Below are positions 6,452-10,411 of a stretch of 32,229 nucleotides of DNA, one piece after another; position 1 is the first letter of the stretch, and the number at the start of each line of letters is the position of its first letter. Source of the stretch: Clostridiales bacterium (GTDB taxonomy: Bacteria > Bacillota > Clostridia > Christensenellales > Pumilibacteraceae). The notes below the pieces were generated by a model. That model was not told where the DNA came from. It was given only the letters and a program-made list of their open reading frames with translations, and made no database searches. Made by a program: the position numbers and the translations under genes. Location of the stretch: positions 1 through 32,229 of the forward strand of contig JAFLVI010000001.1 in NCBI GenBank assembly GCA_022508405.1, read 5' to 3'.

Positions 6452-6501
6452 TTGTCGAAATTGTGCAGGTGCACGCTCATAATACTATAACGGTTTCGAC
6501 A
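6452..6501. promoter_or_regulatory. Two Spo0A-box matches between the divergent small gene and arsR
   Basis: TTGTCGAA (6452-6459) matches the 0A-box consensus exactly, and TTCGACA (6495-6501) is the same 7-mer inverted. Together they are an inverted pair (TGTCGAAA/TTTCGACA) with a 33-nt gap that also contains a small palindrome, GTGCAGGTGCAC (6463-6474). Assignment to Spo0A rests on the consensus only. Confidence 0.55.
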
Positions 6502-6566: not shown

Positions 6567-6911
6567 ATGAACACGTTGTTATTGGACAGTCTTACCGCCG
6601 CAAAGGTGGAAAACAGCTTGCCGTCTCGGTCGGGATTGTTGGCGCTTTCGTCATTTTTCGGCGCGCTGTCCGACGTCACGCGGCTTAAAATTCTTTCTGC
6701 GCTTACCGTGTCCAAAATGTGCGTAAACGATATTGCCGCCGTTACCGGTCTTAACCAGACCACTGTGTCCCACCAGCTGCGCATACTACGCGACGCTCGC
6801 ATAGTGGACGGCGTTCGTCAAGGCAAAGTCATTTTTTACGGTGTGGATAATACCGACATCTCAAGCATAATGAACGCCGCAGTCCGTGCCATCATGGCGT
6901 CCGAATATTAA
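6567..6911 (+). CDS. ArsR-family transcriptional regulator
   Basis: 114 aa winged-helix protein. The core ALSDVTRLKILSAL starts near residue 33, and the recognition helix is in TGLNQTTVSHQLRILRDA. The segment where arsenic sensors have ELCVCDL reads KMCVNDI here, with one Cys, and there is no alpha-5 His/Asp pattern, so a metal ligand is doubtful. Two starts are possible. ATG 6567 coincides with the predicted transcription start and has no ribosome binding site (leaderless). TTG 6618 (codon 18) has AAAGGTGG at 6602-6609 and would give 97 aa, closer to typical ArsR length. The ung gene follows 16 nt later with its own AAGGA, so the two probably share a transcript. The target is unknown. Confidence 0.88.
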   Translation: MNTLLLDSLTAAKVENSLPSRSGLLALSSFFGALSDVTRLKILSALTVSKMCVNDIAAVTGLNQTTVSHQLRILRDARIVDGVRQGKVIFYGVDNTDISSIMNAAVRAIMASEY

Positions 6912-6927
6912 CCAAGGAAAAAATTTT

Positions 6928-7644
6928 ATGATCATCACCGAAAAATGGGACGAAAAGTTATCCGCCGAATACGAAAAGCCGTATTTTAAATCGCTAATGG
7001 AAGCGGTCGACCGCGAGTACAGTAGATACACCGTGTACCCGCCGCGCGACCGCATTTATGCCGCGTTGCAGCTTGTGGACTACGACGCCGTGCGCGTTGT
7101 CATCTTGGGTCAGGATCCGTACCACGGCGCGGGTCAGGCAAACGGGCTTGCCTTTGCCGTCAATAACGGCGTGGAAATGCCGCCTTCGCTTGTAAATATC
7201 TTTACCGAGCTCAAGTCCGACCTTAACGTTCAGCCGAGTGACGACACCACGCTTGTCGGGTGGGCCAATCAGGGCGTACTGCTGCTTAACGCGTCGCTCA
7301 CCGTCCGCGCCGGCGAGGCGCAGTCCCATGCAAGCTTGGGCTGGCACCAGCTGACCGACGCGGTTATCCGCTCGCTTAACGACCGAGAAAAGCCGGTGGC
7401 ATACATTCTTTGGGGTATGAGCGCGCGCGAAAAGACTGCGCTCATTTCCGACCGCAATTTTATTGTGACTTCCGCGCACCCCAGTCCGCTTTCGGCGTAC
7501 CGCGGATTCTTTGGCTCCAAGCCGTTCTCCAAGGTGAACAGCTGGCTGGTAAATAACGGCATGCCGCCCATTCACTGGCAGATGACCGGAAGATTCCAGC
7601 CCGCCGACTACTACAAAAATTCGCATAAGATTTTCCGAGCTTAA
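6928..7644 (+). CDS. ung: Uracil-DNA glycosylase, family 1
   Basis: 238 aa. It removes uracil from DNA to start base excision repair. GQDPYHGAGQANGLAF at 61-76 carries the catalytic Asp63, and HPSPLSAYRGFFGSKPF at 184-200 is the DNA-intercalation loop with His184. The uracil-recognition strand reads VLLLNASLTVR. The track starts at 6886, but AAGGA (6914-6918) lies 9 nt before ATG 6928 and the protein aligns from there. It sits 16 nt after an ArsR-type regulator, an unusual partner for ung. A terminator at 7668-7694 follows. Confidence 0.96.
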   Translation: MIITEKWDEKLSAEYEKPYFKSLMEAVDREYSRYTVYPPRDRIYAALQLVDYDAVRVVILGQDPYHGAGQANGLAFAVNNGVEMPPSLVNIFTELKSDLNVQPSDDTTLVGWANQGVLLLNASLTVRAGEAQSHASLGWHQLTDAVIRSLNDREKPVAYILWGMSAREKTALISDRNFIVTSAHPSPLSAYRGFFGSKPFSKVNSWLVNNGMPPIHWQMTGRFQPADYYKNSHKIFRA

Positions 7645-7667: not shown

Positions 7668-7694
7668 CCGCCGCAAAAAATGCGGCGGTTTTTT
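7668..7694 (+). terminator. Rho-independent terminator after ung
   Basis: CCGCCGCA and TGCGGCGG form a perfect 8-bp GC stem with an A5 loop, followed by TTTTTT (7689-7694). Confidence 0.95.
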
Positions 7695-7714: not shown

Positions 7715-7831
7715 TGTCGAAAAAGGCGAGTACTTATTAAGTTCGACAATCAGTTGTTTAATGTCGAAAATAACGGGTATTACAACAATTCGACATATGT
7801 CGAATACATATAATACTCGACGTAATCGACA
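7715..7831. promoter_or_regulatory. Array of six Spo0A-box-like half sites
   Basis: TGTCGA or its inverse occurs at 7715, 7743, 7762, 7790, 7798 and 7826. They form three inverted pairs (7715/7743, 7762/7790, 7798/7826), each TGTCGA-N22-TCGACA with a 28-bp offset. Five of the six extend to the full 7-mer TGTCGAA; the last is TGTCGAT read on the - strand. The middle is a perfect 18-bp palindrome, ATTCGACATATGTCGAAT (7788-7805). A further near match, TCGACG, is at 7817. TGTCGAA is the published core of the Spo0A box. The array ends 36 bp before the -35 of the protease promoter. Confidence 0.8.
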
Positions 7832-7867: not shown

Positions 7868-7896
7868 TTGACAATATCCTGTAATTGTGGTAAAAT
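7868..7896 (+). promoter_or_regulatory. Strong promoter giving a leaderless protease transcript
   Basis: TTGACA (7868-7873), 17-bp spacer, extended TGG, TAAAAT (7891-7896), 6-nt discriminator ACCGAT, then ATG at 7903. Predicted +1 is the A of ATG. No Shine-Dalgarno is present. Confidence 0.82.
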
Positions 7897-7902
7897 ACCG
7901 AT

Positions 7903-9327
7903 ATGGACGAACAAAAGCAAAATCCGGATTTTAATATTGAAAGCGAATCAAAAGCGCCTGCGCCCGTCGACGCCGTGCCGCCTATAAGCGACATGATGCT
8001 TCCGCGCGATCAATTACCGCTTGTCGCCGTTAAACCCGAATTGCCGGCAGAGCCCGCGCATGTAACTAGGTTGGAAGACGACGGTGCGGATGAGAGCATG
8101 CACGGCGGATATGCGTCCGTAAAAGGCACACCTGTACACAAGCGAGAGAATCGACTTGTTTGGATTGTGATTGCCGTTATGACAATCATGTGCATTGCAG
8201 TGGGCATTTGCTCGTCAGTCATCACCGCAAGGCTGGTGCAAAAGGGTATGAAGCCATGGTATGTCAAATCGGACGGGGAAGTTCAGCAGCACATTTCCGC
8301 TATTGTAACCTTGCGCAAGGACAGCATTGTGGAAGTGCAGTGCGGTACTCTTAGCGGCAGCGGAATTGCAATGAAGCGAGACGGCAAAGAAGTTACGGTT
8401 TTGACCAATGCTCACGTTATTACTCAGTATGTGGACGGAGTCTTGTCCGTAAAGCCACAAGTGCGGTTTGCAGGCTATGACGATTTCTATATTGGAGACG
8501 TCAAGGGCTATGACGAGCATTACGACGTGGCGGTGATTATAGTTACCGTCGATGACGAACTTCCTATCTACGATATAGACGGCAGCTACGTTGTGTCGCC
8601 CGACGTAACGTTTAAAGAAGGCGACTATGTTGTTTCCATAGGCAATGCCATGAGCATGGGCATTGCTTCGTACGACGGCATAATATCGCGCAAGGCCGAA
8701 CTTTTCGACTGCGACAAACTGTTTGGAAAAGGCGGAACAAAGACCGTGCCGGTATTTCGTACCACAGCCGTAATCAACGCCGGCATGAGCGGCGGCGGCG
8801 TGTTTGATATGGAAGGCAGGCTTGTGGGACTGGGCACGTACAGAATGAGCAGTTCCGTCGACTTTAACCCCGATGACCCGTCAACTCATAATCCGGCGTT
8901 CGATGTGGAAAACACAGGCTTTGCCACGCCGATATCCATTGTGTATCCGGTGTATAAGCGCATACTCGCAAGCAGCGGCGGTCAGGTGGGATTGTTTTCG
9001 GTAGAGAACAAAAAAACAAATTCCGCCATAGGACAGGTGGACTTGTCGCAGATAGGCGTAACTTGCGAATATAAAAACGGCAAGCTTGTAGTAGTCGGCG
9101 CAAACAGCGGAAGCGGAATTCAAGTAGGCGATATTATTACCAAGATTGGAAATATCGAAGTCTATAAAAAGGTATCCGGCGTAGAAGTAGTAGCGGATAT
9201 CTGCGAGGTGACGGGAGCGTTTTTAAGGTATCACCGCAGCGGATCGGGCGACGTGCTTAAATTAACCGTTTTGCGCGGCGACGTAAGCAAAACCGCCACG
9301 TTTAACGGATTCCGTTATGCGATTTAG
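7903..9327 (+). CDS. Membrane-anchored HtrA-like serine protease with PDZ domain
   Basis: 474 aa. An acidic, Pro-rich cytoplasmic segment (1-80) precedes one transmembrane helix (about 85-107); the trypsin-like domain follows outside the membrane, and a PDZ-like domain covers about 385-465 (IQVGDIITKIGNIEVY). The triad can be read as His171 (LTNAHVI), Asp208 (HYDVAVI) and Ser296 (GMSGGG, where HtrA usually has GNSGGP). Family members degrade or process misfolded or specific envelope proteins. The ATG coincides with the predicted transcription start, so the mRNA should be leaderless. The start of the next gene overlaps its stop by 11 bp, so the two are probably co-expressed. The upstream Spo0A-box array points to sporulation or stationary-phase control. 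Confidence 0.9.
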   Translation: MDEQKQNPDFNIESESKAPAPVDAVPPISDMMLPRDQLPLVAVKPELPAEPAHVTRLEDDGADESMHGGYASVKGTPVHKRENRLVWIVIAVMTIMCIAVGICSSVITARLVQKGMKPWYVKSDGEVQQHISAIVTLRKDSIVEVQCGTLSGSGIAMKRDGKEVTVLTNAHVITQYVDGVLSVKPQVRFAGYDDFYIGDVKGYDEHYDVAVIIVTVDDELPIYDIDGSYVVSPDVTFKEGDYVVSIGNAMSMGIASYDGIISRKAELFDCDKLFGKGGTKTVPVFRTTAVINAGMSGGGVFDMEGRLVGLGTYRMSSSVDFNPDDPSTHNPAFDVENTGFATPISIVYPVYKRILASSGGQVGLFSVENKKTNSAIGQVDLSQIGVTCEYKNGKLVVVGANSGSGIQVGDIITKIGNIEVYKKVSGVEVVADICEVTGAFLRYHRSGSGDVLKLTVLRGDVSKTATFNGFRYAI

Positions 9328-10411
9328 CCGAAAGCTGTTTTTGTGTTTTGCGGCGATTGTTGCTTCGGCCGTAATGCTGTGCGGCTGCGGCATGGATATT
9401 ACTTCACCCGACATACAGCCGCATATTTCCGCGGCAAAATCCGCGCATGCCGTGCCCATAGACGGGTACGAGCAATTTATAATGCCCGAGTTTTCCGGAG
9501 CGCTTTCCGCCAAGCAGTATCGCGAGCGCGTTTCGCTTTTGTACGACGCTGTGGTGTATGACGGCAAAAAACCGGTTTTTATAGACGGCGATCCCGTCAA
9601 ACCGATATACGACACTGCGCATAATTTTTTGTCGACATACATTCACGACGAATGGGACGAATCGGTGCGCGAGATAAACACCGTGCATGCAATTCACGAC
9701 TGGCTGATTTACACTACCGACTACGACTTTGCGCTTTACGATTCGTACAAGGCGGGCGGCACCGACTATGCGGATAATCCCGCCTTCAACATAGACGGCG
9801 TGCTGTTAAACGGCAAGGCGGTGTGCGACGGACTGGCGCGGGCGTTTAACTTTTTGTGCGCTATGGAAGGGCTGCAAAGCGTGCGCGTTACCGGCTCGTT
9901 TGCGTCTTCGCTTCACGCATGGAACAAGGTGAAAATAGGCGGGGAGTGGCTAAACGTGGACGTCACGTCGGACGCGGTGCATTACGCCGTAAGCGGCAAA
10001 AGTTACAAGCAGATTGCGCACGGCTTTATGCTTGTGTGCGACGATACGCTAAAAAGCTTTGCGCCCAACGGACACGACTTTGTGGATACGCCGTTTACAG
10101 CAAACGCCGATTACGATTACTTTTCGGGCGAAATAATAAAGATAGGGAACAAAACGTATTCGCGCGTGGTTAAGTCGCAATCCGAGCTTAACGCAATTTT
10201 TTCCGCCGTGTCCGCGCAAAAGGGCAAGATAGGCAAGATAGAACTCAAGCTGGAATTTTCCGGCAAAACGCAGGTGAACAGCGCCGATATGTACTCCGCC
10301 GAAATACGCAAGGCGTACGGCAAGGTGGACAACATAGGTTTCGATATATCCAACGGCTACCCGTATTTTCGCTTTCCAAACGGAGTATATCTGTTTCTTA
10401 TCTACAAATGA
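9317..10411 (+). CDS. Transglutaminase-like lipoprotein
   Basis: 364 aa. The N-terminus has a lipoprotein-type signal peptide with lipobox-like LCGC (Cys24). A transglutaminase-like fold follows, with a readable triad Cys170 (GKAVCDGLA), His200 (SLHAWNKV) and Asp215 (WLNVDVTSD). Such extracellular domains act as proteases, peptidases or cross-linkers on envelope substrates; the substrate cannot be read from sequence. A C-terminal region of about 120 aa has no family I recognise. The ATG overlaps the protease gene by 11 bp in another frame, suggesting translational coupling. The last six codons and the stop form one arm and the loop of an 18-bp perfect hairpin (10392-10430). Confidence 0.87.
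   Translation: MRFSRKLFLCFAAIVASAVMLCGCGMDITSPDIQPHISAAKSAHAVPIDGYEQFIMPEFSGALSAKQYRERVSLLYDAVVYDGKKPVFIDGDPVKPIYDTAHNFLSTYIHDEWDESVREINTVHAIHDWLIYTTDYDFALYDSYKAGGTDYADNPAFNIDGVLLNGKAVCDGLARAFNFLCAMEGLQSVRVTGSFASSLHAWNKVKIGGEWLNVDVTSDAVHYAVSGKSYKQIAHGFMLVCDDTLKSFAPNGHDFVDTPFTANADYDYFSGEIIKIGNKTYSRVVKSQSELNAIFSAVSAQKGKIGKIELKLEFSGKTQVNSADMYSAEIRKAYGKVDNIGFDISNGYPYFRFPNGVYLFLIYK

Follow-up and report, generated by a model that had tools for sequence, protein, structure and literature searches.

What reads the cluster of TGTCGA half sites that precedes a protease/transglutaminase operon in a Clostridiales bacterium, and does this cluster control the operon? The locus lies in the window analysed here, the first 32,229 bases of contig C1 of a 1.51-Mb assembly that is 82% complete. 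The original prediction had described six half sites within 117 bp, paired into three inverted repeats that each have a 28-bp offset, and had inferred Spo0A as the binder.

Layout of the array and the adjoining promoter

The window contains three TGTCGA-N22-TCGACA dyads at 7715-7748, 7762-7795 and 7798-7831, with half sites starting at 7715/7743, 7762/7790 and 7798/7826, so that the predicted number of sites, the pairing and the constant 28-bp offset all hold. The array occupies -188 to -72 relative to the protease ATG at 7903, also as predicted, and five of its six half sites carry the full TGTCGAA or its complement, while the sixth reads TGTCGAT. Units 1 (TGTCGAAAAAGGCGAGTACTTATTAAGTTCGACA, plus strand, with an inner CGAGTA and a central TA at 7731-7732) and 2 (TGTCGAAAATAACGGGTATTACAACAATTCGACA, plus strand, with an inner CGGGTA) are in direct orientation to each other. 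Unit 3 is inverted relative to both, since its minus-strand sequence (TGTCGATTACGTCGAGTATTATATGTATTCGACA) fits the left-half consensus. The perfect 18-bp palindrome ATTCGACATATGTCGAAT at 7788-7805, previously singled out as the centre of the array, does exist at the junction of units 2 and 3, and it is a by-product of two abutting units: the spacer between them is not conserved and unit spacings vary.

When up to one mismatch is allowed, TGTCGA-N22-TCGACA occurs in the assembly only at the three array positions, each time exactly, versus two matches for a reversed control. Together with the presence of an orthologous array in all 20 genomes of the genus, this bears out the claim that the regular spacing exceeds chance. 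The genome-wide count that had been proposed gave a divided answer, in that 28-bp inverted pairs are confined to the array, whereas TGTCGAA itself is not enriched (184 sites in G000 versus 519 for the reversed word). Thus, the clustering is the signal and not the word. That TGTCGAA is rarer than its reversed word may reflect codon preference for the control word rather than avoidance of TGTCGAA. Two further inverted boxes, TGTCGAA and TTCGACA, lie at 6453-6459 and 6495-6501, in the region that separates the ArsR gene from a small divergent gene; they have a 42-bp offset and do not form a full unit, and boxes of either orientation recur in the same intergenic region of several relatives.

The following four genes of the locus are on the plus strand. 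The conserved upstream neighbours encode an ArsR-family regulator (6567-6911), kept also where the array is absent, and a uracil-DNA glycosylase (UDG, 6886-7644), whose intrinsic terminator at 7668-7694 separates the UDG gene from the array. Downstream lies the gene for a membrane-anchored, trypsin-like (HtrA-type) protease (7903-9327; Trypsin_2, 2.8e-17) with a PDZ-like C-terminus that falls below the PDZ_6 cut-off. It overlaps the gene for a lipoprotein with a transglutaminase-like domain (9317-10411; Transglut_core, 1.4e-7).

Between the array and the protease gene we found a strong predicted promoter on the plus strand, TTGACA-17-TAAAAT at 7868-7896, whose -35 hexamer (7868-7873) begins 36 bp after the array and whose -10 hexamer (7891-7896) ends 6 nt before the ATG. 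A TATAAT is indeed present at 7809-7814, but the second promoter proposed there did not hold up, as no acceptable -35 pairs with it. A sigma-A promoter was called before the protease start in 15 of the 20 genus genomes, the other five giving no call, and exactly 6 nt separate the -10 from the start codon in 14 of the 15, the last having 9 nt. Because a -10 placed 6 nt from the start codon puts the predicted transcription start on or near that codon, the protease operon mRNA is predicted to be leaderless. A leaderless-type sigma-A arrangement is also seen by eye before the ArsR gene start at 6567. The gap from the end of the last called unit to the -35 is 11-38 bp in 13 of the 15 genomes that gave a promoter call, against 95 and 152 bp in the remaining two. 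For those 13, the promoter calls put the nearest dyad centre about 64-91 bp ahead of the predicted start, which is the zone of class-I activators.

A conserved 34-bp unit and its distribution

To follow the array beyond this genome we combined a pattern search of 151 relatives with a profile scan of the DNA preceding the protease gene. Every one of the 20 genus genomes has two to four units (three as a rule) in the interval from UDG to the protease orthologue, whose protein identity to the protease of the window is 44 to 65%, and this constancy makes it very likely that the array is functional. The original prediction would have been refuted had orthologous operons in relatives lacked the array, and it withstood this check. 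An alignment of six close genomes shows the arms, the unit centres and both promoter hexamers standing out against a diverged background.

The 60 units define a 34-bp dyad with the consensus TGTCGAAAAnGnCGAGTAYTn7TTTCGACA. C4, G5, A6, T17 and T29 are invariant (60/60), A7 and A18 are found in 59 units and T20 in 57, and G2 of the left arm is kept in 59. The inner CGAGTA and the central TA are conserved about as well as the outer arms. The description of the array as pairs of Spo0A-type boxes therefore captured the arms and missed the inner CGARTA element and the near-invariant central TA, which make the unit a 34-bp entity and not two boxes. In six genomes that we call subclade B (G001, G003, G012, G015, G018 and G019), the right arm is mostly CGCG-like and not GACA. 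Units follow one another with a period of mostly 35-37 or 47-49 bp, with a 96-bp gap in two genomes. A coding repeat is ruled out, since periods of 35, 36, 37 and 47-49 bp break the reading frame.

The dyads could also be thought to act as RNA hairpins, in a terminator, a leader or a processing element: the array RNA folds better than shuffled sequences (z = -3.9), and two sites in genus g18 are near-perfect hairpins, one of them followed by a T run. Despite this good folding we rejected the hairpin reading, which we regard as very improbable, for lack of covariation. At none of 17 position pairs does complementarity between the halves exceed the expectation from column frequencies by more than 2 of 60 units, and there are no compensatory changes. 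The right arm is often unable to pair fully with the left, and the array of this genus (g1) sits after the UDG terminator and before the predicted start site. The independence of the two halves favours DNA binding, with each half read separately, over an RNA hairpin.

How far does the array extend? In the order (396 genomes), a strict pattern of two units was found in at least six genomes of this genus and as one off-consensus match elsewhere; because this pattern misses several known arrays, the counts are lower bounds. The two-unit match elsewhere, in G178, was rejected as unlike the consensus, and a match in G073 is a chance match in coding sequence. Half-units gave 33 matches in the 20 genomes, about half of them inside arrays, versus 21 control matches, so that outside the array they occur at about the control level. 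No further copies were found at other promoters of the genome, and a regulon of several operons is thus not seen. The 3' coding stretch of UDG (window 7580-7640, encoding ADYYKNSH) resembles a unit in several genomes and ranks high among background matches, probably through codon chance. A derivation of the array from the 3' end of the UDG gene was rejected, as a clean profile scores UDG tails at about 11 or less versus about 20-40 for most units. Among the matches listed in the literature, there was no relevant operator with the arm and core sequences.

The unit also occurs in genera g15, g4 and g5, weakly in g16 and singly in g18. In g15, g4, g5 and g16 a small SpaA/prealbumin-like gene lies between the array and the protease gene, with the array at its 3' end, and contact with the protease promoter is therefore not universal. 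In g18, where the SpaA-like copy matches PF17802, the unit follows the SpaA gene and is itself followed by TTGACA-17-TATACT or TTGACA-17-TAAACT, a promoter-like sequence with its end 6 nt ahead of the ATG of a gene for a small membrane protein. In other genera, a small SpaA/prealbumin-like gene repeatedly has an array or a single unit at its 3' end (loci L065, L066, L067, L068, L122, L301 and L314). In G020, of genus g2, the gene order is the same, the array is absent and about 16 bp separate the UDG and protease genes. We infer that the array predates the genus and that loss of SpaA brought it next to the protease promoter.

Candidate binders and proposed mode of control

Taken together, the data make it highly probable that the array is an operator for a DNA-binding protein. 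Each 34-bp dyad would be bound by one dimer or a pair of dimers, and, arranged next to one another ahead of the sigma-A promoter, these proteins would control the protease/transglutaminase operon. Given the position of the nearest dyad centre relative to the predicted start in 13 genomes, the simplest mode of control would be a class-I-type activator scaffold, that is, activation rather than repression.

A major question is whether Spo0A is the protein that binds. Spo0A contacts G2, C4 and G5 of TGTCGAA, its established core, and a perfect box was predictive of Spo0A binding in C. difficile (PMC3485338). The spo0A gene itself is known to have several 0A boxes that interact (PMC12090719). The organism encodes a Spo0A with canonical DNA-binding residues (Spo0A_C match of 1.1e-42 in G000), whose DNA-binding domain aligns over its length with PDB 1lq1, VERAIRHAIEVAW being common to both. 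Judged by its genes, the genus appears to form spores, with Spo0A, SpoIIGA in 20/20 genomes and a SpoIIE-like protein in 20/20, none of the latter scoring above the family's curated cut-off. TTCGACA lies near -50 of the spoIIGA promoters in 18 of the 20 genomes and upstream of spoIIE in seven of the 18 loci that were read. The left arm of the unit has the TGTCGAA (TGNCGAA) core of Spo0A-regulated promoters, including G2, C4 and G5. The two inverted boxes beside the ArsR gene point the same way.

Other features do not fit plain 0A boxes, namely the inner element, the divergent right arm of subclade B and the single-locus distribution. The fixed TA and T20 fall outside any 0A box, and the right arm of subclade B mostly lacks the G2 contact. 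Known tandem 0A boxes are 10 bp apart, and here the step from the outer box to the inner element is 9 bp. No box sits beside the -35 as for activation: the array ends at least 11 bp upstream of it, and the zone just upstream of the -35 that is used at spoIIG contains no array box. The occurrence of one array per genome is not explained by Spo0A alone. We therefore see about an even chance that Spo0A is the main binder, with another regulator ranked next; the Spo0A part of the original prediction stays plausible.

One alternative is that the array is the operator of a regulator other than Spo0A, whose full site is the 34-bp unit with a partial likeness to 0A boxes, and which controls only this operon. 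Such a regulator would account for an inner CGAGTA and a central TA that are conserved much like the outer arms, for half-units that stay near the control level outside the array, and for a strict pattern that has one off-consensus match in the order besides this genus. Against it, the left arm follows the 0A-box rules closely, and none of the regulator genes is restricted to loci with an array. The ArsR protein encoded nearby was rejected as the binder because there are only isolated TGTCGAA boxes and no full unit at its own promoter, and because its gene persists without the array in G020. A candidate is a domain-only Spo0A_C paralogue of about 108 residues (G000:C21:10861-11184, L130), which is present in 17 of the 20 genus genomes and almost nowhere else in the family. 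It was not found in the array-bearing genomes G011, G012 and G013, nor in g4, g5 and g18, and so its presence does not fully track the array, for which it was set aside. A further, weak Spo0A_C-like protein is encoded at G000:C57. Overall we consider a regulator other than Spo0A possible and somewhat doubtful, at clearly less than an even chance.

The array could instead be a structural or recombination site that is kept for itself, such as a resolvase-type res site, a replication-fork site or a nucleoid site. There is one array per genome, which in several genera is flanked by convergent UDG and SpaA genes, and its 117-bp, three-subsite layout is res-like; serine-recombinase crossover sites have a fixed central TA. 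Yet in g1 the array has a fixed place before a conserved promoter, in g18 it again precedes a promoter-like sequence, the number of units varies from two to four and their spacing is variable, the centre is fixed in all units and not in one, and no recombinase gene was seen among the window genes. We regard this possibility as unlikely.

Our preferred reading, to which we give only slightly less than an even chance, is that the array is a lineage-specific operator that controls the protease/transglutaminase operon, with phosphorylated Spo0A the likeliest single binder. Contacts of phosphorylated Spo0A with the outer TGTCGAA arms would couple the operon to the onset of sporulation, and recognition of the inner CGAGTA-TA would fall to a partner protein or to a second protomer that binds in a non-canonical register. 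A broader formulation, which we hold tentatively and below even chances, is that the 34-bp unit is a composite site of an undescribed assembly (a regulator other than Spo0A, perhaps the domain-only Spo0A_C protein, or Spo0A with a partner) that would form on two to four dyads spaced at 35-37 bp and govern a single leaderless protease operon. If Spo0A binds, the array represents a new arrangement of 0A boxes, and the sporulation regulon in this uncultured gut lineage gains an envelope protease/transglutaminase operon; with another protein as the binder, the array is the operator of that regulator and offers a conserved 34-bp target suited to pull-down. The array, the promoter and the apparently leaderless start are conserved well enough for testing in a heterologous spore former.

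Comparison with known operators and sites

The array resembles three known systems in part. The res sites of Tn3-family serine resolvases have three inverted-repeat subsites in about 115 bp, with TGTC ends and a central TA, like the array. In contrast to res sites, the units of the array are all of equal length, their number and spacing vary between species, and the array sits at a promoter with no adjoining resolvase gene seen among the window genes. The operators of QacR-type TetR regulators, which bind as a dimer of dimers, are dyads of about 34 bp in which each side has an outer and an inner half site, as in the array unit; this likeness is one of layout, no TetR-family gene was seen linked to the array, and multi-unit arrays of fixed period are untypical of QacR-type operators. 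Finally, the outer arms of the array have the same TGTCGAA core as the 0A boxes of Bacillus abrB, spoIIG and spo0A and of C. difficile spo0A and sigH. Known 0A boxes are single or head-to-tail, whereas the array has inverted pairs with a fixed 28-bp offset around an extra CGAGTA-TA, and these pairs are repeated two to four times upstream of the -35.
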